Shown one piece after another: positions 1,880-48,822 of a DNA stretch of 64,000 nt; the stretch's first letter is position 1, and each line of letters begins with the position of its first letter. The notes beneath the pieces were generated by a model. The model searched no databases and was not told where the DNA came from. It saw nothing but the letters and a program-made list of their open reading frames with translations. Position numbers and translations under genes: made by a program. This stretch comes from an uncultured Litoreibacter sp. (GTDB lineage Bacteria > Pseudomonadota > Alphaproteobacteria > Rhodobacterales > Rhodobacteraceae), in assembly GCA_947501685.1 (NCBI GenBank), contig CANMWQ010000005.1, forward strand, positions 124,001 to 188,000. The letters are read 5' to 3'.

Positions 1880-2371
1880 TTAATGAGACGTGTTGATTTT
1901 TAAGCGTTTATGGATGCGGTCCACTTTCGTGCCATCCTCCAGCGGTTGCGCCTTGCTGACGGAATGGTCCTGAAACCCCATTTTGGAATAGTAAGCCAGC
2001 CCGCCGGTATTGTCCGCGCGGATGGTGGCATCGAGCTGATCATAACCTGCCGCACTGCTGGCTGCCAATGTCGCCTGAAACAAGGCAGAGCCAATGCCTT
2101 TCTGCGCTGTGCCGGGCCGCGTGAAGGTGGCGATGCTGCCCATATCGTCCGGCTCCATGACCCGCACCCATTGCATACCCAGCAACTTAGCCTCGGCTTC
2201 CGCGACATGCAGGAAGGTTTTTTGCGTGTCGCTGTCGATCAGCGGATCAAAAAAGCTGGATGTGACAGGGCTGAGATAGGCCGTGGTGCCACCAATGGCG
2301 ATCACGGCGTTGAGGATCTCGGTCAGTTGCGTCCTATCTGACATTAAACCGCGACGAATGATCATGGGCAA
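1880..2371 (-). CDS. GNAT-family N-acetyltransferase
   Basis: 163 residues with the GNAT fold signatures: acetyl-CoA-binding motif A around residues 85-97 (RPGTAQKGIGSAL, the Q/RxxGxG/A loop) and the C-terminal motif NTGGLAYYSKMGF at 121-133. Substrate unknown; the layout resembles PhnO/RimI-type single-domain enzymes. The first codons overlap the 3' end of the upstream HD hydrolase gene by about 10 bases, so the two are probably translated from one mRNA. A second in-frame ATG two codons in (2365) is equally possible. Confidence 0.82.
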   Translation of the reverse strand: MPMIIRRGLMSDRTQLTEILNAVIAIGGTTAYLSPVTSSFFDPLIDSDTQKTFLHVAEAEAKLLGMQWVRVMEPDDMGSIATFTRPGTAQKGIGSALFQATLAASSAAGYDQLDATIRADNTGGLAYYSKMGFQDHSVSKAQPLEDGTKVDRIHKRLKINTSH

Positions 2372-2949
2372 AGCTCCTCAAACCGGGCGATGAAGTCGGC
2401 TTTGACCTGCATTGGCGGGCGCGGTGTCAGCGTGGTGGGTAGCGGGATTTGCGATTTGGGCGCGCCGAAGAAGCGATTGCTTTCCTCCACCGAGAACCCT
2501 GCGATCTGCGTGGCTTCCAGCCAGGCCGACAGCTTGTCGGCGGCTTTGATCTGCTTTTTCACCGCCACCGGGATCGTGGCGGGCAGCCCGAAACGCAAAT
2601 GAATGGCGGCGGTCAGCCGATCGTCAAGTTCGCCGTAGCCCGGCCCCACTGCGGCTTTGACGGGGCTGATCATGTCGCCGATCACATATTCGGGCGCGTC
2701 GTGCAGCAAGGCGGCCAGCTGCCATTTCATCGGTGCCGCGGGGTTGGCGGCGGTGAAAAGCCGCTCCACCAGCACCGAATGCTCGGCCACGGAATACGGG
2801 TAGTCGCCATGGGTCTGGCCGTTCCAGCGCGCCACGAAAGCCAGCCCATGAGCAATGTCCTCGATCTCGATATCTACCGGGGTGGGGTCCAGCAGGTCCA
2901 GCCTGCGGCCCGACAACATGCGCTGCCATGCACGGGGTTGTTTTGCCAT
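2362..2949 (-). CDS. HD-domain phosphohydrolase (YfbR-like)
   Basis: 195 residues. Metal-binding HD residues visible: His57 in SVAEHS, the His83-Asp84 pair in LLHDAPEY, and a later Asp in LDDRL. The sequence resembles the YfbR/YGK1 branch (5'-deoxynucleotidases and relatives), which hydrolyses nucleoside monophosphates; the precise substrate is not evident. It is first of a two-gene minus-strand unit with the GNAT gene and lies divergent from ahcY. Confidence 0.78.
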   Translation of the reverse strand: MAKQPRAWQRMLSGRRLDLLDPTPVDIEIEDIAHGLAFVARWNGQTHGDYPYSVAEHSVLVERLFTAANPAAPMKWQLAALLHDAPEYVIGDMISPVKAAVGPGYGELDDRLTAAIHLRFGLPATIPVAVKKQIKAADKLSAWLEATQIAGFSVEESNRFFGAPKSQIPLPTTLTPRPPMQVKADFIARFEELCP

Positions 2950-3094
2950 CGCGATGCCCCTTCAAAACGATCTTTCATCCAGTACTTACCCGCCCCACAT
3001 GGCCCGAGGGAACCGGTTTTTGCCCGCTTTGCCGCATTGAGCTACAGGCCGAATGCTGTTACCGCAGGCGCAAATTGACATGAGGACGCAGAAC

Positions 3095-4483
3095 ATGGCG
3101 CATGATTATATCGTAAAAGACATTGAGCTGGCTGCTTACGGCCGCAAAGAGCTTGATATTGCCGAGACAGAGATGCCGGGCCTGATGGCGCTGCGTGATG
3201 AGTATGGCGAGAGCAAACCGCTCAAAGGCGCGCGCATTGTGGGCTCCCTGCATATGACCATCCAGACAGCCGTGCTGATCGAGACTCTTGTCGAGTTGGG
3301 CGCTGATGTGCGCTGGGCGTCGTGCAACATCTTCTCCACGCAGGACCACGCGGCGGCGGCGATTGCGGCGGGCGGCACGCCGGTCTTTGCGATCAAGGGC
3401 CAATCTCTGGAAGAGCATTGGGACTATTTGGACAAATCCTTCATGTTCCCCGACGGCCCCACCCTGATTTTGGACGATGGTGGCGATGCGACGCTCTATA
3501 TCTTGCTGGGCGCGCGCGCCGAGGCGGGGGAAGAAGTGCTGGCCGTGCCGACTTCGGAAGAAGAAGAGGTCATCAAACAGCAGATCGCCAAGCGGATGGC
3601 CGCCAGCCCCGGCTGGTTCACCAAGATGCGCGACCAGATCAAGGGCGTGTCGGAAGAGACGACCACCGGCGTCCACCGCCTCTATGATCTGGTGAAGCAA
3701 GGCCAGCTGCCTTTCCCGGCGATCAACGTGAACGACTCAGTGACCAAGTCGAAATTCGACAACAAATACGGCTGCAAAGAGAGCCTTGTTGACGGCATCC
3801 GCCGCGCCACCGACACGATGATGGCAGGCAAGGTCGCCGTCGTGATGGGCTACGGCGATGTGGGCAAAGGCTCCGCTGCCAGCTTACGCGGTGCGGGCGC
3901 ACGCGTGAAAGTCACCGAGGTGGACCCGATCTGCGCGCTGCAAGCTGCGATGGACGGGTTCGAGGTGGTGCTTTTGGAGGATGTGCTGGCGACAGCCGAC
4001 ATTTTCATCACCACAACCGGCAATAAGGACGTGATCCGCATCGAGCATATGCGCGAGATGAAGGACATGGCGATCGTCGGCAATATCGGGCACTTTGATA
4101 ACGAAATTCAGGTGGCCGCGCTGAAGAACCACAAATGGACCAACATCAAAGAGCAGGTGGATATGATCGAGATGCCGTCGGGCAATCGTCTGATCCTGCT
4201 CTCCGAGGGCCGTTTGCTGAACTTGGGCAATGCCACGGGCCATCCGTCTTTCGTGATGTCGGCGTCGTTTACCAATCAGGTGCTGGCGCAGATCGAGCTG
4301 TGGACCAACACCGACGCCTATGGCAACGAGGTCTATATCCTGCCCAAGCATCTGGACGAGAAAGTGGCCCGCCTGCATCTCGACCGCATCGGGGTGAAGC
4401 TGACCAAGCTGGATCCAGAGCAGGCCTCCTATATCGGCGTGTCGCCGGACGGCCCGTTCAAGCCGGAGCATTACCGCTACTAA
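3095..4483 (+). CDS. ahcY: adenosylhomocysteinase (SAH hydrolase)
   Basis: 462 residues. Reversibly splits S-adenosylhomocysteine to adenosine and homocysteine, clearing the product inhibitor of methyltransferases; cytosolic tetramer with bound NAD. Seen: N-terminal catalytic segment with [16 protein letters not shown], the middle Rossmann segment [20 protein letters not shown], and the conserved C-terminus ending KPEHYRY. The start is the ATG at 3095 ([10 protein letters not shown]), which has GAGGAC 7 bases upstream and matches the family N-terminus; ATG codons at 3053 and 3080 would add a non-conserved leader. An extensin-like gene begins at the base after the stop codon. Confidence 0.96.
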
Positions 4484-5182
4484 ATGCGCGCTCTTTCGGG
4501 ACTTTTCAGCGCCACCTTGCTTGTCTGCGGGGTGGCGCTTTGCCTTTGGCAACTGGCGGTGCATCCGGACACGCCTTTGCCGCGCGAATGGAACCCCACC
4601 AAGCGGCTCTCTCTGGAGGACCCGGTGACGCTGCTGACGCCCTACAAGCTGGACGCGGCGGCAAATGATCCGCAGCTCTGCCGGGAGGTGGTGCAAGCCT
4701 CGGACATAAACGCCCAGCCCATGGACCCGCTGGAGGTCAGCCCACAATGCGGCATTGCCAACCGGATGCGGCTCTCCGGGGCGGGTCAGGCCAGCCTCGC
4801 CCCTCTTGAGACCACCTGCGCCGTCGCCTTGCGTCTGGCCATGTGGGAACGCCAAGGCCTGCAACCCGCCGCCCAACGCCATTTCGGGGAAGGCATTGCG
4901 CGGATCAACCATTTCTCCAGCTATAATTGCCGCGCCATTCGTGGCGCCACCACCCGGATGAGCCTGCATGCCACGGCGGAGGCGATTGACGTCTCCGGCT
5001 TTGTGCTCGACAGCGGCAAATCGCTGAGCCTCAAGGCAGATTGGGAGCGCGAGCGCGCCTTTTTCGAAGAGGTCCGCGACAGCGCCTGCCAATGGTTCGA
5101 GACCACTTTGGGCCCTGAATACAACGCGCTACATGCCGACCACTTCCATTTGCAGTCGCGCGGGTGGGGGACGTGCCGTTGA
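4484..5182 (+). CDS. extensin-like C-terminal domain protein (putative M15-like metallo-fold)
   Basis: 232 residues, with an N-terminal membrane anchor (about 5-26) and a C-terminal extensin_C-type domain. Conserved metal-site-like residues are His162 and Asp169 (in LHATAEAID) and the HADHFH cluster at 217-222, a pattern resembling LAS/M15 peptidoglycan peptidases (HxxxxxxD and HxH). Several Cys (C20, C66, C89, C112, C149, C202, C231) fit an exported, possibly disulfide-bonded protein. The ATG begins at the first base after the ahcY stop, so translation is probably coupled. A cell-wall role is inference. Confidence 0.78.
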   Translation: MRALSGLFSATLLVCGVALCLWQLAVHPDTPLPREWNPTKRLSLEDPVTLLTPYKLDAAANDPQLCREVVQASDINAQPMDPLEVSPQCGIANRMRLSGAGQASLAPLETTCAVALRLAMWERQGLQPAAQRHFGEGIARINHFSSYNCRAIRGATTRMSLHATAEAIDVSGFVLDSGKSLSLKADWERERAFFEEVRDSACQWFETTLGPEYNALHADHFHLQSRGWGTCR

Positions 5183-5317
5183 CCTAAAGGCGACGTAATC
5201 TTGCCTACGGGGAAAAGTGGGCGAGAAATTCCTTTGTTTCGGCTCGGTTAGCCTTTAGATTGCGCCCGTAAGGCCGGGTTGAACGGCCGGACACTTTTTA
5301 TTGGTGGGAGAGCTCAA

Positions 5318-5659
5318 ATGGGCAAGAGAGAAGACCTGATCGCGCTTTATGCGGATGATCTGAAGAACAAATGCGGCATGACACCTGACATGGATCTGCT
5401 GACCAAAGTCACCATCGGCTGCGGCCCTGCGATCTACAACGCGGATGCCTCCACCGTGGCTGGCAGCCAGCCCGCTGAGCTGGAAACCGTGAAGAACAAC
5501 TTCCTGATCAAGAAGTTGGGTCTCTCTGACAGCCCGGCTTTGATGGACGCCATCAACAGCTGCATCGAGACGTATGGCAAATCCGAGCGCAACAAATACC
5601 GCGCCGTGATCTATTACATGCTGACCAAGCACTTCAACAAAGAGTCCGTCTACGGCTAA
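5318..5659 (+). CDS. DUF2853 family protein
   Basis: 113-residue soluble protein beginning MGKREDLIALYADDLKN and ending HFNKESVYG. This agrees closely with the DUF2853 family common in Roseobacter genomes; function unknown. The start at 5318 is chosen because GGGAG lies 7 bases upstream; a possible start at 5279 would add a leader read through the 5'UTR hairpin (GGCCG/CGGCC, 5272-5288). It stands alone and is followed by a strong terminator, so it is probably a monocistronic, well-expressed gene. Confidence 0.8.
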   Translation: MGKREDLIALYADDLKNKCGMTPDMDLLTKVTIGCGPAIYNADASTVAGSQPAELETVKNNFLIKKLGLSDSPALMDAINSCIETYGKSERNKYRAVIYYMLTKHFNKESVYG

Positions 5660-5681
5660 GCTCTTTCGCGATCCGAATTGG

Positions 5682-5717
5682 AAAAAGCGTCTGCCTTCCG
5701 GGGTGGGCGCTTTTTTT
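5682..5717 (+). terminator. rho-independent terminator after DUF2853 gene
   Basis: AAAAAGCG pairs with CGCTTTTT, and the inner six bases (TCTGCC/GGTGGG) also pair through three G-T wobbles, leaving a 6-base TTCCGG loop. The 3' arm runs into seven T. A textbook intrinsic terminator 22 bases beyond the stop. Confidence 0.88.
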
Positions 5718-5893
5718 ATGAGAATTTGAGATGGTTTTGGAACAAATGCACCGGGTAATTCATTTGCTTCTACACCGCCGACAATCGTATGAGTTTAGCC
5801 AGTTTCTAATACGTGCGGTGCGATACCCATGTGTGGGGTAGAAGGGGATGTTGACGAAAGTTGGCGTCCCCTTTCCTGTCTCGCTTGCGGCCA

Positions 5894-6307
5894 CTACAGC
5901 CCGCCCATTTTGCACACCAGCTTCCATTCCTGCGCGGTCACAGGCTGCACCGACAGCCTTGAGTTCTTGACCAGTACCATCTCGGCCAGACGCTCCTCCG
6001 CCTTGATATCGTCCAGGTGCACGGGCGTTTTCAGCGGCTTGACCGCCTTGATATCTACGCAGTCCCAACGCTCATCCTCAGTCGTGCTGTCGGGATGGGC
6101 CTCCGCGATCACCTCGACCAACCCCACGATCTCTCGATCTTTTTGTGAATGGTAGAAAAACCCCTGATCGCCGATTTTCATTTCCCGCATGAAGTTGCGC
6201 GCCTGATAATTGCGCACGCCGTCCCATTCCTCACCCGCGTCGCCTTTGGCCACTTGCTGGTCCCAGGACCAGGTCGAGGTTTCCGATTTGAAAAGCCAAT
6301 AGGCCAT
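5894..6307 (-). CDS. EVE domain-containing protein
   Basis: 137 residues making up one EVE (PUA-like) domain: MAYWLFKSE at the start, the WDGVRNYQARNFM core and GDQGFFYHS, then KLVCKMGGL at the end. EVE proteins bind modified bases in DNA or RNA; the bacterial function is not settled. It is the last gene of tsaD-gpsA-EVE on the minus strand, 12 bases after gpsA. The tsaD link (tRNA t6A modification) is suggestive but not proof of an RNA-related role. Confidence 0.88.
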   Translation of the reverse strand: MAYWLFKSETSTWSWDQQVAKGDAGEEWDGVRNYQARNFMREMKIGDQGFFYHSQKDREIVGLVEVIAEAHPDSTTEDERWDCVDIKAVKPLKTPVHLDDIKAEERLAEMVLVKNSRLSVQPVTAQEWKLVCKMGGL

Positions 6308-6319
6308 GATCTTTCTCCC

Positions 6320-7255
6320 TTATTCTGTCGTCAGTGGGCGGCTCAGCAACGCGTCCAACGCTTGGGCCAGCGTGAGTTTTCCGCCGACAATGCCCGCCAC
6401 AACCTGCGTAATCGGCATGTCCAGCCCATGCGCGCGCGCCAGGTCAAGCGTCGCCAGCGCCGTGGCGCGGCCCTCGACGGTTTTGCCCTCCGCTGGCGTC
6501 TCGCCTGCGCCCAGCGCGAAGCCAAACGCGTAGTTGCGAGACTGCGCCGATGTGCAGGTCAGCGCCAAATCCCCAAAGCCCGCCAGCCCGTAAAGCGTCT
6601 CGGGCTTTGCGCCCAGTTTCAAGGCCAGCCGGTGCGTCTCCGCCATGCCGCGCGTCATCAGCGCGGCCCGTGCGCTTTCGCCTAACCTCGCGCCCATGCA
6701 AATGCCGCATGCGATGGCGACCACGTTTTTCAAAGCGCCGCCCAGCTCCGCGCCCACGGGGTCGTCCGACAGATACGGCCGCAACGTGTCGGAGGAGAGC
6801 AGCGCCTGCAATTCGCCCCCCAAGGCAAGGTCTTCGCAAGCCAGCGTCAGCGCGGTGGGTTTGCCTTGCGAGATGTCGGACGCAAAGCTCGGGCCCGTCA
6901 ACACCGCCGAGGCGCAACCCAGCCGGTCCCTGATGACCGCCGAGGGCCCGCGTGTGGTTTTCAACTCAATGCCCTTGCAGCACGCAATCGCGGCGTGTGG
7001 GACGGCACCCAAACCTGCCAAATAGCTGTCCATGCCCTGCATCGGGATGGCGACCAGCAGAATATCCTCCGGCCCCACGTCCGGCGTGGCGGTCAGGGTC
7101 ATCCGCTCGGGCAGCAGCACGTCAGGCAGCCTCGGGCTGCGCCGCGTGGCGATGATCTCGTCCATATTGCGCCCGGTCAAGGTGACGGGGCGTTCCAATG
7201 CCAGCGCCAAAGCCGTGCCAAACGCGCCCGCACCTGCAACGATGATCTTGCTCAT
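6320..7255 (-). CDS. gpsA: glycerol-3-phosphate dehydrogenase [NAD(P)+]
   Basis: 311 residues. Reduces dihydroxyacetone phosphate to sn-glycerol 3-phosphate for phospholipid synthesis; cytosolic. Seen: dinucleotide-binding loop [14 protein letters not shown] near the N-terminus, the Lys of ACCKGIE, and the catalytic segment [14 protein letters not shown]. Slightly shorter than the 330-residue E. coli enzyme. Start codon and tsaD stop codon overlap by four bases, so translation is probably coupled. The plsY gene that uses glycerol 3-phosphate lies elsewhere in this window (45.9 kb). Confidence 0.93.
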
Positions 7256-8358
7256 GCCTTGGCCCCTTTCTTGCCCGATCCCAACATAGCGGGTGCGGTG
7301 CTGTCCAGTGGCCAGCGTGGCCGGGCCGCCAGCGTCATGTCATCCACCAAGCCCAGCCGCAGCCGTTCGATCCCGACCCAAGCGATCATCGCGGCATTGT
7401 CCGTGCACAGCGCCAAAGGCGGGGCAAGAAACCGGGTCTCCGTCTCCGCGGCGACGGCCTCAAGCCCTGCGCGGATCACCTTATTGGCCGCGACCCCGCC
7501 TGCCACGGCGATGGCCGGGGCGCCGCTCAGCCGCAGCGCGCGGCGGGTTTTCTCGGCCAGCACTTCGCTGACGGCGGCCTGAAAGCTGGCGGCAAGGTCG
7601 TGCTGGTCCTGCACATAAAGCCCGCCCTGTTTGGCCACCAGCGCGTCCCGCGCCCGCAGCACGGCGGTTTTCAGGCCAGAGAAGGACATGTCGCACCCCT
7701 CCCGGTCCAGCAAAGGACGCGGCAGCGGGAAGCGGGTGGCATCGCCGCTCAACGCGGCCTGCTCGATCATCGGGCCGCCCGGTTGCAGCAGGCCGATCAG
7801 CTTGGCGGTCTTGTCAAACGCCTCGCCGGGCGCGTCGTCAATGGTGCCGCCCAGCCGGGTGAATTCGGTGGCAGAGCGGACGACAAGAAACTGGCAATGC
7901 CCGCCGGAGACCAGCAGCATCAGATAGGGAAACTCCAGCCCATCCGTCAGCCGCGGCGTCAGCGCGTGGCCCGCCAGATGGTTCACGCCGATCAAAGGTT
8001 TGCCAGACCCCAGCGCCAGCCCTTTGGCGCACATCACGCCGGACATGACCCCGCCGATGAGCCCCGGCCCGGCGGTCACGGCGATGGCGTCCATTTCGCT
8101 CAGATCCATCCCGGCCTCGGCCAAAGCGGCCTCCACCATCAGGTCCAGCTTTTCGGCATGGGCGCGGGCGGCAATCTCAGGCACGACGCCGCCAAAGCGC
8201 GCGTGCAGCTCCGTCTGCCCGGCCACCTTGGCGCTGAGTATCTCCGCCCTCTGCCCCGGCACGGCACGGACCACGGCGGCGGCGGTGTCGTCGCAGCTGC
8301 TTTCCAGCCCCAGAAGGGTCAGCGTCCGGGCAGGCTCGGTCAGGTGTGTTGCGTGCAT
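7252..8358 (-). CDS. tsaD: tRNA N6-threonylcarbamoyladenosine transferase subunit TsaD
   Basis: 368 residues. Transfers the threonylcarbamoyl group to A37 of ANN-decoding tRNAs with TsaB/TsaE, using the adenylate made by TsaC/Sua5 (a Sua5-type gene is at 56.7 kb). Seen: ASKHA-type N-terminus [15 protein letters not shown], the metal pair His127/His131 in [16 protein letters not shown], and the C-terminal [11 protein letters not shown]. The start is the ATG at 8358 (MHATHLTE), giving the family length; upstream in-frame ATGs run into the divergent hemD. First gene of tsaD-gpsA-EVE. Confidence 0.95.
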
Positions 8359-8409
8359 GATGGCCACGGGGTAACACCGCACCATGCGCCTTACAATGCT
8401 GCCGCCACG

Positions 8410-9090
8410 ATGATCCCGATCCTGCTCACCCGCCCAGCCGCGCAGGCGCAGGAGTTCGCGGCGCAGGTCACGGCGCGTTTCGGCCCTGACACATGCTGCG
8501 TCATCTCGCCTGTGCTTGAGATGGTGGCACTGTCGCCCGAGATTGACTTCAGCGCCTATGCGGGTCTGGTCTTCACCTCCCAAAACGGTGTCGCGGCGTA
8601 TCGCCAGATCGGCGGCCCAAGCGGATTGCCCGCCTATTGCGTCGGCGACAAGACCACGCGCGCGGCACAGGACGCCGGGTTGCAGGCGCGCTCTGCGGGC
8701 GGCGATATCACCGCGCTCAACTCCCTTCTGGCGCAGATGCCGGACCTTGGCCCTTTGCTGCATCCCAGCGGGGTGCATGTGGCCGGGCAGGTCACGGGCG
8801 AGGTGACGCGGGTGGCCGTCTATGACCAGCGCCCGCTTGATCTAAACCCGCAGGCCCGCGACATTTTGCGCCAGCCCGGCGCGGTCTTGGCGCCGCTTTT
8901 CTCGCCGCGCTCGGCGCATGTGCTGCAAGAAGCGCTTCCGGCCGACAGACGGGCAATAATCCATGCAATTTGCCTCAGCCAAGCGGTGCGAGACGCTCTT
9001 GACGCGGACCGGTTTGGCCATATTTCCATCGCCAAAGTGCCCACGGCGGAGGCAATGCTGGACAAAATGGCGGAATTCTTCCCCTCTTGA
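8410..9090 (+). CDS. hemD: uroporphyrinogen-III synthase
   Basis: 226 residues. Cyclises hydroxymethylbilane with inversion of ring D in tetrapyrrole synthesis. The HemD family is poorly conserved, but [39 protein letters not shown] and the C-terminal SxAVRDAL / [11 protein letters not shown] blocks fit. Synteny supports it: the next genes are the Mic60-like and HemY-like proteins that follow hemD in many alphaproteobacteria. The start at 8410 begins 51 bases from the divergent tsaD start; the frame is open far upstream only because it is antisense to tsaD. Confidence 0.85.
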
Positions 9091-9172
9091 TCAGCTTGAG
9101 GGTCTGGAAGGTTCCGCGCTATGCTCGCCCTTGGACGTTAGAGGGCGACTCGTTGCCCGGTGTTTCAGAGGA

Positions 9173-10495
9173 ATGGCTAAATTGGCAAAATCATCGAAAC
9201 GATCATCATCCAAAACACCAGCTGCGAAATCAGGCAAGGCCAAGTCCGACGCCTCCACGCGAGATGATGTAATCGACGCGGAGGTGGTGTCCGAGACGTC
9301 TTCAATGGCCGATGATGCAAATGCGATTGATGCAAAGGCCAATGAGGCGCTCTCTGAAAAGCCTGCCAGCGATGACGTTGTCAGCAAGGCAAGCAGTTTC
9401 CCCGAGATTGAGCCGATAAAAGGCGACGCCGAACCAGAGTCGACCTCAGAGCTGGAACAGACCCAAGAGCCAGAGCTCACAGAAGAGCCAAAAGAAAACC
9501 CCGAGGCGGCCCCGGCCCCTGTGGATGCGCCTCCGCCCGCCAAAAGTGGCCTGTTTGGCTCCGTTCTGGGTGGCATTATTGCGGCCGCTATCGGGTTCGG
9601 CGCGGCCATGATGTTCTTCCCGCAAGGTTGGAAGCCGCAGGACAACAGCGCTCTGACCGAGTTGCAAAACACGGTTGCCGCGCAAGGCACCGCGATGGAG
9701 GCCGCCACTGCCGAGACCCAAGCCAGCATCGCTGCGACCCAAGAGGCGCTGGAGGGCGAGATTGCGGCGCTTTCTGAGACCGATACTGCGCTCACAGCCG
9801 GGATTGACGGGCTCAACACCCGCCTTGATGAGCTGACCCAGGGCGATGGCAGCACCAAGCTGCCAGATGACGTGCAAATCCTGCTGAATGCGCAGAAGGA
9901 GGAGATCTCCCAGCTGCAAGCCACCGTTGCGGGCATGGCCGATGACGCCAAAGCGCAGATGGAGGCCGCCGCCGCGCAACAAGAAACCGCCGAACAGGCG
10001 GAGGCCCGCGTGAAAGCGCGTGGTGCGGCGCAGGAAATCCGGCTGGCGCTGCTCAGCGGTGAGCCTTTTGCCGAAGCCCTTGACGTGGTGGCTCCCGCCG
10101 TCGAGGTGCCCGCCGCTTTGGCCGCTGTCGCTGCCGATGGCGCGCCCACCTCTGCAGAGGTCAGCGGCGCGTTTCCTGCCGCAGCCCGCGCCGCGCTGTC
10201 ACAAGCCGTGCGCGAGGAGGCCGGCGACGACACGCAAAGCCGTCTCAAGCTGTTCTTTCAGGATCAGCTGAACGCCCGGTCGCTCTCCCCGCAGGAAGGC
10301 GATAGCGCGGATGCGGTCTTGTCGCGTGCCGAGGCGGCCGTGAAAGCGGAAGATTATCAAACAGCTCTGAACGAGATCGACGCGCTGCCCGAAACGGCGC
10401 AGGCCGCGCTTGCCGACTGGCGGGCGCAAGCGGAGGCGCGTTTGGGCGCCGTTGACGCATTCACAGCCGTCACCGACGCGCTGAACAGCAATTAG
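9173..10495 (+). CDS. Mic60/mitofilin-like inner-membrane protein
   Basis: 440 residues: an N-terminal cytoplasmic region (1-125) rich in Ser, Lys and acidic residues, one transmembrane helix (about 127-149), then a long Ala/Glu/Gln-rich region (about 157-300) predicted to be coiled coil in the periplasm, and a compact C-terminal part (about 320-440). That order is the one known for alphaproteobacterial Mic60 homologues, whose genes lie between hemD and a hemY-like gene as here. The mitochondrial homologue shapes crista junctions. The start at 9173 has AGAGGA almost abutting the ATG, so it could be off by a few codons. Confidence 0.76.
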   Translation: MAKLAKSSKRSSSKTPAAKSGKAKSDASTRDDVIDAEVVSETSSMADDANAIDAKANEALSEKPASDDVVSKASSFPEIEPIKGDAEPESTSELEQTQEPELTEEPKENPEAAPAPVDAPPPAKSGLFGSVLGGIIAAAIGFGAAMMFFPQGWKPQDNSALTELQNTVAAQGTAMEAATAETQASIAATQEALEGEIAALSETDTALTAGIDGLNTRLDELTQGDGSTKLPDDVQILLNAQKEEISQLQATVAGMADDAKAQMEAAAAQQETAEQAEARVKARGAAQEIRLALLSGEPFAEALDVVAPAVEVPAALAAVAADGAPTSAEVSGAFPAAARAALSQAVREEAGDDTQSRLKLFFQDQLNARSLSPQEGDSADAVLSRAEAAVKAEDYQTALNEIDALPETAQAALADWRAQAEARLGAVDAFTAVTDALNSN

Positions 10496-10516
10496 GACGG
10501 GAATTGGGGTAAGTAT

Positions 10517-12013
10517 ATGATTTGGTCATTGGTCAAGATTCTGATTTTCGTTGGGATTATCGTGCTGGCCACGATGGGCGTGTCGCAGCTGCTGGAAACC
10601 AGCGGTGAGGTCAGCATTTCCGTGGCCAACACGGAGTTCACACTGACCCCAATGGTTGCCCTTCTGGGCCTTGTGGTGCTGCTCTTTGCGTTCTGGGTAT
10701 TGCTGAAAATTCTGAACCTTCTGGTCGCTGTGTTCCGTTTCCTCAACGGCGATGAAACCGCCATTTCGCGCTATTTTGACCGCAACCGGGAACGCAAAGG
10801 GTTCGAGGCGCTGGCCGATGGGTTGATGGCCTTGGCCTCCGGCGAGGGGCGCACCGCGATGGCGAAGGCCGCCAAAGCCGAGAAATACCTCAAACGGCCC
10901 GAGCTGACCAACCTGATCACCGCCCAAGCCGCCGAGCAATCCGGCGACACGCGCAAGGCGCAAGAGGTTTATAAACGCTTGCTGACCGACGAGCGGACCC
11001 GGTTTGTCGGTGTGCGCGGTATCATGAAACAAAAGCTGACCGAAGGCGACACAGACACCGCGCTGAAGCTGGCTGAAAAGGCCTTTGCGCTGAAGCCGAA
11101 ACACGAAGAAACGCAGGACCTGCTGTTGCAATTGCAAGCAGGCTCCGAGGATTGGACCGGCGCGCGCAAGACGCTGGATGCCAAGCTGAAATACGGCTCC
11201 TTGCCGCGCGATGTGCATAAGCGCCGCGACGCGGTTCTGGCGCTGTCGGAGGCCAAGGACGTGGTCGCCGAAAGCAACACGATCGAGGCCCGCGAGGCCG
11301 CGATTGAGGCCAATAGGTTGTCGCCTGACCTGATCCCCGCCGCGATCATGGCCGCTGGCACCTATGTGGAGCAGGGCAAAAAACGCTACGCCACCCGCGT
11401 GCTGAAAAAGGCCTGGGACGCGCAGCCGCATCCCGAGCTGGCCGCCGCCTTCGCCACCATCGAGCCAGAGGAAACGCCACAGGCCCGCATCAAGCGGTTC
11501 AAGGCGCTGATCAAGTCGCGGCCGGACCATCCCGAGGCGAAAATGCTGATGGCTGAGCTCAACATCGCCGCTGAGGATTTCCCCGAGGCCAAGCGCACTT
11601 TGGGTGATCTGGTGACCTCCGAGCCAACGGCGCGCTCGCTGACCATCATGGCCGCGATCTCGCGCGGTGAGGGGGATGAGGATGCCGTGGTGCGCGGCTG
11701 GCTGGCCAAGGCGCTCGCCGCCCCGCGCGGCCCGCAATGGGTCTGTGACAATTGCCAGCAGGTGCATGGCGGCTGGGAGCCCGTGTGCAACAATTGCCAA
11801 AGCTTCGACACGCTCAGCTGGCGCTCGCCGCCTGAATCCGAGGTCAGCGCCAATCCTGGCGTTGAAATGCTGCCCCTGATCGTCGGCGCCATCGAGGACA
11901 AGACTAACGCGCCTGACGAGGACAGTGTCGAGCCCGATCACGAGGTGATTGTGGTCGAGCCGTCCGAGGTGGACACCCCTGCTGACACGCCCGAAAAAGA
12001 GGAGAAGGTCTAG
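10517..12013 (+). CDS. HemY-like membrane TPR protein with C-terminal zinc ribbon
   Basis: 498 residues: two N-terminal transmembrane helices (about 5-25 and 42-70) of the HemY_N type, then a long alpha-helical TPR-like repeat region (about 75-390), then a CDNC...CNNC ribbon near residues 409-428, and an acidic tail. The E. coli hemY product is a TPR membrane protein beside hemD whose role is unclear; this is not the Bacillus HemY oxidase. It starts 21 bases after the Mic60-like gene, so hemD-mic60-hemY form a likely operon. The ribbon could hold a metal; that is inference from the Cys spacing. Confidence 0.82.
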   Translation: MIWSLVKILIFVGIIVLATMGVSQLLETSGEVSISVANTEFTLTPMVALLGLVVLLFAFWVLLKILNLLVAVFRFLNGDETAISRYFDRNRERKGFEALADGLMALASGEGRTAMAKAAKAEKYLKRPELTNLITAQAAEQSGDTRKAQEVYKRLLTDERTRFVGVRGIMKQKLTEGDTDTALKLAEKAFALKPKHEETQDLLLQLQAGSEDWTGARKTLDAKLKYGSLPRDVHKRRDAVLALSEAKDVVAESNTIEAREAAIEANRLSPDLIPAAIMAAGTYVEQGKKRYATRVLKKAWDAQPHPELAAAFATIEPEETPQARIKRFKALIKSRPDHPEAKMLMAELNIAAEDFPEAKRTLGDLVTSEPTARSLTIMAAISRGEGDEDAVVRGWLAKALAAPRGPQWVCDNCQQVHGGWEPVCNNCQSFDTLSWRSPPESEVSANPGVEMLPLIVGAIEDKTNAPDEDSVEPDHEVIVVEPSEVDTPADTPEKEEKV

Positions 12014-45877: not shown

Positions 45878-46486
45878 CTAGGATTTCGACCCAATGCGCG
45901 CCTCTGTGCCGTTGGCAATGCGTTTGATATTGGCGGTGTGGCGCAGCCAGATCAGGGCTCCCATTGCGATGCAGGCGACCATCAAATCCATGCGCCCGAC
46001 CACGATCAGCCAGATTGGAATGGAGGCGGAGGCGACCAAGGCGGACAGGGAGGAAATGCGAAAAATTGCGGCGGTCACGGCCCATGTCAGGCAGGCTGCT
46101 CCGCCAATGGGGAAAGACAGCGCAAGAAGAGTTCCCAGATAAGTCGCCACGCCCTTGCCGCCTTTGAAGCCAAGCCAAACTGGGAAGAGATGGCCCAAAA
46201 ACGCCATGACCCCGGCAAGTTGGGCAGCGTCTTCTCCTACGAGGATTCGCGCCAAAACCACGGCAATCGCGCCTTTGCCCGAATCGAGCAGCAATGTCGC
46301 AAGGGCTGCTGGTTTTGAGCCGGTGCGCAGCACGTTTGTGGCTCCGATATTGCCCGAGCCGATGCTGCGTAGGTCCCCAAGGCCGAAGAGTTTGGTGATC
46401 ACCAAACCGAACGGAATTGAGCCGAGCAGATAGGCCAAGGCGGCGGTTGCCAGCAGGAGCGGCAGGGATGTGACAATCTCAGGCAT
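45878..46486 (-). CDS. plsY: glycerol-3-phosphate acyltransferase
   Basis: 202 residues. Acylates glycerol 3-phosphate from acyl-phosphate, the first committed phospholipid step. Membrane protein with the three PlsY motifs: GSIPFGLVITK, the GSGNIGATNVLRTG loop, and GFKGGKGVAT. Start at 46486 (MPEIVTSL) overlaps the pyrC-like stop by 8 bases, making it the last gene of the pyrB operon. Confidence 0.94.
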   Translation of the reverse strand: MPEIVTSLPLLLATAALAYLLGSIPFGLVITKLFGLGDLRSIGSGNIGATNVLRTGSKPAALATLLLDSGKGAIAVVLARILVGEDAAQLAGVMAFLGHLFPVWLGFKGGKGVATYLGTLLALSFPIGGAACLTWAVTAAIFRISSLSALVASASIPIWLIVVGRMDLMVACIAMGALIWLRHTANIKRIANGTEARIGSKS

Positions 46487-47774
46487 TTGGCGGGAAAACC
46501 TGAGTTCCAGCCACAAAACTGCGCAGCACTTGGCCTTGCATGCGCTGGCCGTCAAAAGGCGTGTTCTTGGATTTCGAGCGCAGGGTCTCGCGGTTTAGAA
46601 TGAAGGGCGCATGTGGGTCAAAAAGCACCAGATCGGCAGGCGCACCTTTGCTCATGCGGCCCCCATCTAACCGCAGGCGTTTGGCCGGGTTCAGCGACAT
46701 AGCGCGGAAAAGAGTTGGCAGGTCAAGCTGGCCGGAATGGAACAGGCGCAAGGCTGCGGGCAGAATGGTTTCCAACCCAACCGCGCCCGAGGCCGCCTGT
46801 TCGAACGGCAGCCGTTTGCTCTCTTCGTCTTGGGGTGTGTGCATGGAGCAGATGATGTCGATCAGCCCGGAGGCTACCGCCGCGACCATAGCCTGGCGGT
46901 CATCTTCCGAGCGCAGCGGCGGTTTTACCTTGAAGAAGGTGCGGTAGTCGCCGACGTCAAGCTCGTTGAGCGTGAGGTGATGGATGGAGACCCCTGCCGT
47001 GACGTCCAGCCCGTCGGCTTTGGCGCGCTCCAATGCAGGCAGAGCGGCGGCTGAAGAAATCTGGTCTGCATGGTATCGGACTTTCGTGGCCTCGACCAAG
47101 GCTAAGTCGCGCTCCAGCCCCATGCGTTCGGCAAGGGGGGAGACCGCAGGCAGGCCGCGCAAAGACGCGAATTTGCCTGAGGTGACGGCGGCCCCGTCGC
47201 TGAGGATCGGCTCCTGCGGGTGGCCCATGACCAATGCCCCGAGGGATCGGGCGTAGGTCATGGCGCGGCTCAGCACCTTTGTGTCCGTCACGACATTGTC
47301 GCCATCTGAAAATGCCACGGCCCCTGCGTCTTGCAAGAAGCCCATCTCGACCATCTCGCGACCCGCGCGGTCTTTGGTCAGCGCGGCCATCGGTGCGATG
47401 CGGATATCTGTCATCTCACCACCACGGCGCTTGGCGAATTCCAGCGTTTCGGGCGTGTCCACAGTTGGCAATGTATCGGGACGCGTCACCATGGTGGTCA
47501 CGCCACCGGCGGCAGCGGCTAGCCCTGCGGTGCGGAAGCTTTCCTTGTGACGCTCGCCCGGCTCGCACACCTTTACGCCGATATCAATGATGCCGGGCGC
47601 CAGATGTTTGCCGCCGCAGTCGATCCGCGTGTGTTTGGCGTATTTGGCGGCGGTCAGGTCGGCGGTTTCAGACAACACGGCCTCGATCTTGCCAGCGCTG
47701 ATAGCAACCGCACCAGCGGTTTCAGTTCCGGCCTCGGGGTCGATCAGGATCGCGTTGGTGAGAAGAACTTTCAT
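46479..47774 (-). CDS. pyrC: dihydroorotase-like protein with lost metal-site residues (pseudo-DHOase)
   Basis: 431 residues, the full length and fold blocks of type I dihydroorotase. But the zinc HxH motif (normally IDxHVHxREPG) reads IDIGVKVCEPG: Gly66 and Lys68 replace both His and Cys70 replaces the substrate Arg. The catalytic Asp block (normally TDHAPH) is SMHTPQ with Met311 at the Asp site. Two other His survive (H185, and HH265-266). Most likely a non-catalytic partner for aspartate transcarbamoylase, as described for the Pseudomonas ATCase/pDHO complex. Translation is coupled to the micro-ORF before it and to plsY after it. Confidence 0.88.
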   Translation of the reverse strand: MKVLLTNAILIDPEAGTETAGAVAISAGKIEAVLSETADLTAAKYAKHTRIDCGGKHLAPGIIDIGVKVCEPGERHKESFRTAGLAAAAGGVTTMVTRPDTLPTVDTPETLEFAKRRGGEMTDIRIAPMAALTKDRAGREMVEMGFLQDAGAVAFSDGDNVVTDTKVLSRAMTYARSLGALVMGHPQEPILSDGAAVTSGKFASLRGLPAVSPLAERMGLERDLALVEATKVRYHADQISSAAALPALERAKADGLDVTAGVSIHHLTLNELDVGDYRTFFKVKPPLRSEDDRQAMVAAVASGLIDIICSMHTPQDEESKRLPFEQAASGAVGLETILPAALRLFHSGQLDLPTLFRAMSLNPAKRLRLDGGRMSKGAPADLVLFDPHAPFILNRETLRSKSKNTPFDGQRMQGQVLRSFVAGTQVFPPNA

Positions 47775-47875
47775 GAGCTGAACCAGACCAGAAAGCCGGT
47801 AAAGCCGAACAGGCCCAGCAGCGCGTATGTTGCGATCTTGCCTGACATGCGCGGGTCTTTTGGGTCTTCGCTCAT
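47771..47875 (-). CDS. 34-residue membrane micro-protein between pyrB and pyrC
   Basis: Starts [17 protein letters not shown], then one hydrophobic helix (about residues 18-32, [15 protein letters not shown]) and ends FSS. The ATG shares four bases (ATGA) with the pyrB stop, and its own TGA shares four with the pyrC start, so it is stitched into the operon by double overlap. Too short for ordinary gene callers. The hydrophilic N-terminus and single helix suggest a bitopic inner-membrane peptide. Function unknown. Confidence 0.66.
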
Positions 47876-48822
47876 ACCATGACTCCTTCCGGTTTGGAGG
47901 CCCGGGCACGGACCAAAAGCTCCATGCAGGCCATGCGCACAGCCACGCCCATTTCCACCTGCTCCTGAATGACCGAGCGGTTGATGTCGTCTGCCAAGGT
48001 GCCGTCGATCTCCACGCCGCGGTTCATCGGGCCGGGATGCATGACAATCGCTTCGTCCTTGGCGTGGCTCAGCTTGTCCGCGTCCAAACCGTAGCGGTGG
48101 TAATATTCGCGCTCGGAGGGGATGAAACCGCCATCCATCCGCTCCTTTTGAAGCCGCAGCATCATTACCACGTCCACGTTTTGCAGGCCCTCGCGCATGT
48201 CCTCGAACACCTCGACGCCGAAGTGATCAATCTCGGAAGGCATAAGGGTCGGTGGGCCGACAAGCCGCACGCGGTTCTCCATTTTGCCGAGCAGCAGAAT
48301 GTTGGACCGCGCCACCCGCGAATGCGCAATATCGCCGCAAATGGCGATGCTCAGGCGGTGCAGACGACCCTTGGCGCGGCGGATGGTGAGGGCATCCAGC
48401 AGCGCTTGCGTTGGGTGTTCGTGCTTGCCATCGCCTGCGTTCAGCACGGCGCAGTTTACCTTTTCGGCCAGCAGGTTCACCGCGCCGGAATGCGGGTGCC
48501 GCACGACCAGCAGGTCGGGATGCATGGCGTTCAGCGTCAGGGCGGTGTCGATCAGGGTCTCGCCCTTTTTGATGGAAGACGCCTGCATCGCCATGTTCAT
48601 CACATCCGCGCCAAGGCGCTTGCCCGCGATCTCAAAGCTGGCTTGGGTGCGGGTGGAGTTCTCGAAGAACATATTGATCTGGGTCAGCCCGGCCAGAGTG
48701 TCGCCATGTTTCCGCTCGGAGCGGTTCAGCGCCACATATTGGTCCGCCAAATCCAGAATCGCGGTGATATCGGTGGGAGAGAGATGTTCGATCCCAAGCA
48801 AATGCTCCGCGCGGAATGTCAT
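47872..48822 (-). CDS. pyrB: aspartate carbamoyltransferase catalytic subunit
   Basis: 316 residues. Joins carbamoyl phosphate to aspartate in pyrimidine synthesis. Carbamoyl-phosphate motif [37 protein letters not shown], and [24 protein letters not shown]. Start at 48822 ([15 protein letters not shown]) has AAAGGG 7 bases upstream and gives the family length; longer ORF starts are not conserved. First gene of pyrB - micro-ORF - pyrC-like - plsY. No pyrI regulatory subunit seen. Confidence 0.95.

Follow-up and report, generated by a model that had tools for sequence, protein, structure and literature searches.

Why should a predicted membrane protein of 34 residues be encoded between pyrB and a gene resembling pyrC? 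The question arises from a stretch of 64,000 nt of an uncultured Litoreibacter sp. of the Rhodobacteraceae (contig CANMWQ010000005.1, positions 124,001 to 188,000; hereafter the window), the source genome of which measures 3.32 Mb and is 98.99 % complete. Here pyrB, for the catalytic chain of aspartate carbamoyltransferase (ATCase), and a gene homologous to those for dihydroorotase (DHO) are adjacent on one strand and joined by start/stop overlaps via a micro-open reading frame (micro-ORF). ATCase itself is a textbook soluble enzyme. The reading that we prefer, with a probability of roughly 0.4, is that the space between the two genes, termed the slot, encodes membrane partners of a complex of ATCase with a scaffold chain, and that the product of the micro-ORF (the microprotein) is the minimal membrane anchor within the operon.

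The micro-ORF and its product

With a length of just 34 codons, the micro-ORF could in principle be a chance reading frame. Its conservation was assessed in 19 of the 21 Litoreibacter genomes in the GTDB sense (loci L007–L025), the other two giving only a partial or weak match, and the frame is present at 15 of these 19 loci. Across the 105 pairs formed by the 15 loci, the ratio of nonsynonymous to synonymous differences per site (pN/pS) is 0.22 in frame, as opposed to 1.45 and 1.77 in the other two frames. A comparison of the window's frame with that of L008, the nearest relative, gives 20 synonymous differences over 22.3 sites and 4 nonsynonymous differences over 67.7 sites. Because of this low in-frame ratio, and because the reading frame is conserved, the micro-ORF is judged to be a real gene under purifying selection; conservation in relatives, which the original prediction had proposed to examine, is thus borne out. 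A chance ORF is refuted by the same in-frame ratio, as well as by in-frame conservation across many genera, and retains next to no probability.

The constant part of the microprotein reads (D/E)PKDP(R/K)MSG(K/R)(I/V)A and is followed by approximately 20 hydrophobic residues. In the window's protein the second half is hydrophobic as judged by hydropathy alone, with a best 19-residue Kyte–Doolittle mean of 1.78 from residue 14 onwards. As lysine and arginine are confined to the N-terminal side, the charged and conserved N-terminal tail likely resides in the cytoplasm, with the hydrophobic half crossing the membrane (N-in, C-out). No match to the microprotein was returned by Pfam, NCBIfam or PADLOC, a profile search against solved structures yielded three chance-level matches alone (best E-value 0.46), and plasmid records gave none at E ≤ 0.1.

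With regard to its distribution, a profile search of the first 50 loci located the microprotein in 16, of which 15 encode proteins of 33–34 aa, all from the same genus, with the remaining example forming the C-terminus of a longer protein. Family-wide, the profile matches 97 of 394 genomes (E ≤ 0.01); this count takes in fused forms as well as some stray hits, and it depends on the thresholds of the profile hidden Markov model. In a class-wide sample, 4 of 289 genomes match at E ≤ 1e-4 and a further search returned 3 of 289 genomes of the class, all of them Rhodobacteraceae in both cases. The microprotein lies between pyrB and the pyrC-like gene at each of 53 loci from named genomes, which span Litoreibacter, Shimia, Thalassovita, Thalassobius, Cochlodiniinecator, Roseovarius, Roseobacter, Flavimaricola, Planktomarina, Planktotalea and unnamed Rhodobacteraceae. 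A weak second match to the profile within the window's own genome (E 4.4e-4) falls on the beginning of a DUF6446 protein, which starts with MSGK and a hydrophobic stretch (L231; G000:C4:267900-270000, locus 542-1072); it is probably unrelated to the microprotein.

The slot and its tenants

Beyond the window, slot genes were called at 178 of the 190 loci with pyrB in view, using a script that relied on codon bias and nearest starts; some genomes occur twice amongst these 178. A family sample of 87 loci (L140–L226) comprised the 27 best-ranked and a further 60 picked by hand, approximately every second one among the best matches listed, so that the slots of distant relatives are under-sampled; pyrB was in view at 81 of the 87. 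Three membrane-protein families fill the slot in varying order: a tail-anchored family designated CTM, a PH-like family and the microprotein. Clustering places almost every slot protein in one of two groups, with microproteins and CTM together in the first and PH-like proteins in the second. Nine of the 81 sampled slots are empty and 72 are filled; in 65 of the latter all tenants come from the three families, with two small clusters counted as PH-like. PH-like proteins are found in 52 slots, CTM in 43, CTM with a microprotein-type anchor in eight and a separate microprotein in 11. The window's genome and its nearest relative represent the minimal version, as the microprotein is the sole tenant in both. 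In Ruegeria sp. TM1040, the megaplasmid carries a slot gene (CTM) annotated as a hypothetical protein and a pyrC-like gene annotated as dihydroorotase. The gene-calling script wrongly assigned two loci, L029 with an empty slot and L041 with a single fused frame, to the class 'pyrB downstream/other'. At the second of these (G028:C38, Rhodobacteraceae) PyrB and the DHO homologue are read as one frame of 797 aa, a putative fusion of ATCase with its scaffold, within a fragmented genome that is 82 % complete.

The near-confinement of these families to the slot speaks for the preferred reading. Where the position of the pyrC-like gene is known, which holds for 14 of 27 CTM and 13 of 29 PH-like matches, CTM lies inside the slot in 13 of the 14 and PH-like proteins in 11 of the 13; the remaining weak PH-like matches may lie elsewhere. 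All of the 30 best family loci for the microprotein show pyrB and/or the pyrC-like gene alongside, and 17 of 20 further placed matches are in the slot. Since the three families are confined to the gap between the catalytic and putative scaffold genes, a link to the ATCase complex is suggested. One micro-like protein of 41 aa, encoded without pyrB nearby (L232; G369:C1:635300-641500), is the sole clear case found away from pyrB.

In some genera the microprotein also occurs as part of a larger protein. Eight of the 51 sampled CTMs possess a micro-like C-terminal anchor (E ≤ 1.4e-5), in which the motif PSDAAMSGR, or variants of it, precedes the membrane segment, whilst the other 43 show no match to the microprotein below an E-value of 1.9. 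All nine CTMs that adjoin a separate microprotein belong to these 43, and in none of the 178 slots do the separate microprotein and the fused form of CTM occur together. From this either/or pattern, one small module is seen, at the level of sequence, to be interchangeable, either standing alone or providing CTM with its anchor. The model of CTM, which is confident (predicted local distance difference test, pLDDT, 89.6), displays a globular domain of approximately 120 residues that is joined by a linker to a single long helix at the C-terminus, and its fold has no match in the PDB (best E-value 0.45). The AlphaFold model of the PH-like protein (pLDDT 81.7) combines a pair of long helices with a beta domain, the latter resembling the bacterial PH domain 3dcx with a Foldseek probability of 1.00 and an E-value of 0.013, with no match at E ≤ 0.001.

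That the micro-ORF merely hands ribosomes from pyrB to the pyrC-like gene is very improbable. ATGA overlaps do flank it on both sides in the window, and translational coupling had been offered as a possible role in the original prediction. As the sole purpose this is unlikely, given the conserved amino acids and the distance of the gene from those flanks in other genera. The amino acids are under selection; in L008 the micro-ORF stops 28 bases ahead of the pyrC-like gene; in other genera the microprotein gene is also found between the CTM and PH-like genes, away from both pyrB and its partner; and empty slots (L022, L025) couple pyrB to the pyrC-like gene directly. These four observations largely refute coupling as the only function. 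Tight junctions are nonetheless a feature of the slot as a whole, with a 4-base overlap the commonest arrangement (141 of 265 junctions, taking the start nearest the previous stop, which favours such overlaps), and this tightness suggests matched synthesis.

The pyrC-like gene as putative scaffold

PyrB is recognised by NF002032 (410.1 bits, cut-off 263), TIGR00670 (306.8 bits, cut-off 236.95) and the Pfam families OTCace_N and OTCace. The pyrC-like product scores 296.5 bits against TIGR00857 for type I dihydroorotase, above the cut-off of 279.05, and its nearest solved structure is the Aquifex DHO 3d6n (phmmer E 2.6e-71). In passages of PMC3880350, the zinc ligands of the Aquifex enzyme are given as His61, His63 and Asp153, with Asp305 close by. 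Gly66, Lys68 and Met311, which the original prediction had singled out as degenerate, do align to His61, His63 and Asp305. Alignment reveals further losses at Aquifex positions 153 (Asp to Gly) and 232 (His to Gln), with His180 retained. As the alpha-site zinc ligands are missing despite the TIGR00857 score, the protein is read as a homologue of type I dihydroorotase and is not classed as an active enzyme; the gene is hereafter termed pseudo-pyrC and its product the pseudo-DHOase.

In an alignment of 127 proteins, Gly61 and Lys63 are found in 111 of 113 Rhodobacteraceae sequences and Met305 in 101 of 113. Outside the family, His at position 61 is missing from all 14 alphaproteobacterial proteins. 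The degenerate positions are fixed across the Rhodobacteraceae pseudo-DHOases, and for this reason the dead site itself seems to be under selection.

The genome encodes a separate class II PyrC (G000:C3:470239-471249; TIGR00856 411.8 bits, cut-off 292.95), with a match to the solved structure 4lfy (E 1.7e-127). It displays the HLH, K, H, H and D motifs and looks intact, with activity being predicted. The argument that pseudo-pyrC would have to encode an active enzyme for want of another dihydroorotase, raised at the outset as a reason for doubt, is thereby ruled out. A further near-family amidohydrolase (L002), at 190.7 bits, falls under the TIGR00857 cut-off and reads like a dihydropyrimidinase/hydantoinase.

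In Pseudomonas, passages of PMC7053772 describe a class A2 ATCase in which an inactive pseudo-DHO chain is required for ATCase activity. The holoenzymes of this class are dodecamers. The parallel drawn previously with this chain fits, and the pseudo-DHOase looks like an ordinary, known kind of protein, comparable to that of class A2. The original prediction stood in its sequence facts and its pseudo-DHOase, and was right in part about what these mean; what was missing from its picture is the slot with three families of membrane protein.

Possible membrane partners or passengers

In the explanation that we favour, the four genes from pyrB to plsY would belong to a single operon with coupled translation. 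An ATCase of class A2 type would be assembled from PyrB and the catalytically dead chain, with the dead chain as scaffold, and dihydroorotase activity would be supplied by the class II PyrC. The microprotein, CTM and PH-like protein would be membrane partners of this complex, with the microprotein alone acting as a minimal anchor in the window's genome, holding or regulating the complex at the membrane and placing it near the membrane-bound dihydroorotate dehydrogenase. We infer transcription as an operon, the topology, tethering as the purpose, and a physical association with PyrB or the scaffold chain; a membrane tether, as had been raised before, is possible. The wider proposal, of an undescribed ATCase membrane module of the Rhodobacteraceae in which three families share one slot and the microprotein is the interchangeable anchor, is put forward only tentatively. 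If true, it would bring a committed step of pyrimidine synthesis to the membrane, next to the quinone-linked dihydroorotate dehydrogenase.

Several observations weigh against membrane partnership. Neither CTM nor the PH-like family, which would be the main partners, has a match in the window's genome at E ≤ 0.001. Four of the 19 genus loci lack the microprotein, two of them with an empty slot, and in one such genome (G004) the profile has no match anywhere. These losses, together with the nine empty slots of the family sample, mean that over evolutionary time the genes can be dispensed with. Across the 81 genomes, presence has changed at least 15 times for the microprotein, at least 17 times for CTM and at least 24 times for the PH-like family, as counted on a quick tree with no shuffled control. 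Three of the 20 further microprotein matches lie elsewhere, of which one keeps pyrB, one is on a short contig and one is truly apart. Lastly, unrelated genes occupy some slots, as expected of a hot spot for passengers.

The main rival explanation is that the slot is a safe and highly expressed landing site for small membrane proteins that cooperate with one another and not with ATCase, which we regard as possible, if somewhat less probable. It would account for the quick gain, loss and reordering, as well as for the empty slots. The fusion of the microprotein to CTM links those two without PyrB, and some slots contain a candidate defence protein or a large insert. A generic landing site does not, however, explain why the three families are so nearly confined to this one position (17 of 20 microprotein, 13 of 14 CTM and 11 of 13 PH-like matches), nor why one genome retains the adjacency of pyrB and the microprotein gene whilst its pseudo-pyrC is on another contig. 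Moreover, none of the three families has a PADLOC match.

As to the foreign genes themselves, three slots (L109, L121 and L219) hold a protein of 323–325 aa, the copy in L109 matching the PADLOC candidate defence family PDC-S11 (E 2.8e-119). In another (L230; G283:C28:421500-434500, locus 2221-10713), approximately 9 kb are inserted between a CTM–microprotein fusion and pseudo-pyrC; the insert harbours ORFs of 553, 773 and 874 aa, with no Pfam match over cut-off and no PADLOC match, plus an ORF of 517 aa on the opposite strand.

A variant that goes beyond anchoring holds that the microprotein or its slot partners tune ATCase to a membrane signal, as a regulatory subunit would. Class A2 ATCases are described in passages of PMC7053772 as regulated holoenzymes that need a second chain, a slot partner has a modelled PH-like domain, and the polar N-terminal tail of the microprotein is strongly conserved. 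Presence of the microprotein nevertheless differs amongst close relatives, and regulation of this kind is considered unlikely.

Whichever outcome holds, either ATCase works at the membrane in Rhodobacteraceae or a housekeeping gene pair hosts a shuffled membrane module, and functions would be given to protein families that are now without a Pfam model. Both outcomes are testable in cultured roseobacters.

The features of the locus are collected in Table 1. The overlaps of 4, 4 and 8 bases between successive genes, from pyrB to plsY, agree with those first noted.

Table 1. Genes and gene overlaps of the pyrB locus, in window coordinates
Feature	Positions	Strand	Basis
pyrB (316 aa), catalytic chain of aspartate carbamoyltransferase	47872-48822	(-)	NCBIfam and Pfam matches
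micro-ORF, 34 aa, ATG start, predicted single-pass membrane protein	47771-47875	(-)	Sequence, conservation, hydropathy
pseudo-pyrC (pDHO), homologue of type I dihydroorotase lacking the alpha-site zinc ligands, 431 aa	46479-47774	(-)	
plsY, glycerol-3-phosphate acyltransferase	45878-46486	(-)	TIGR00023 166.6 bits (cut-off 137.2)
pyrB/micro-ORF start/stop overlap, 4 bases	47872-47875	(-)	Sequence
micro-ORF/pseudo-pyrC start/stop overlap, 4 bases	47771-47774	(-)	Sequence
pseudo-pyrC/plsY overlap, 8 bases	46479-46486	(-)	Sequence

Comparison with known systems

In the open-access literature no microprotein at pyrB was found, an outcome that does not prove absence; neither this protein nor the slot seems to have been described before. 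The closest parallel to the locus as a whole comes from Pseudomonas, whose class A2 ATCase, as described in passages of PMC7053772, likewise has pyrB followed by a DHO homologue devoid of zinc ligands, with the active DHO encoded elsewhere. The difference is that here a gene for a membrane protein, or one to three of them in most relatives, stands between both genes; the main text of PMC7053772 does not contain the word 'membrane', and no such intervening gene was met with in its passages. The class A1 ATCase–DHO of Aquifex aeolicus (3d6n) offers a homologous scaffold chain. Its DHO is active, with His61, His63 and Asp153 as ligands according to passages of PMC3880350, whereas the protein of the window has Gly, Lys and Gly at these positions.

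Amongst the slot partners, the model of the PH-like protein resembles the PH domains of bacterial PH-domain proteins (DUF1696, 3dcx), and there is a weak NCBIfam match to PuhB of 22.3 bits (cut-off 110). It reaches no Pfam cut-off, and it is absent from the window. The microprotein, in turn, resembles bacterial small membrane proteins of fewer than 50 residues in being short, in having one predicted hydrophobic segment and in being missed by the family libraries searched. It differs from them in that it is almost wholly confined to a slot beside pyrB, and in that a fused form of it exists.

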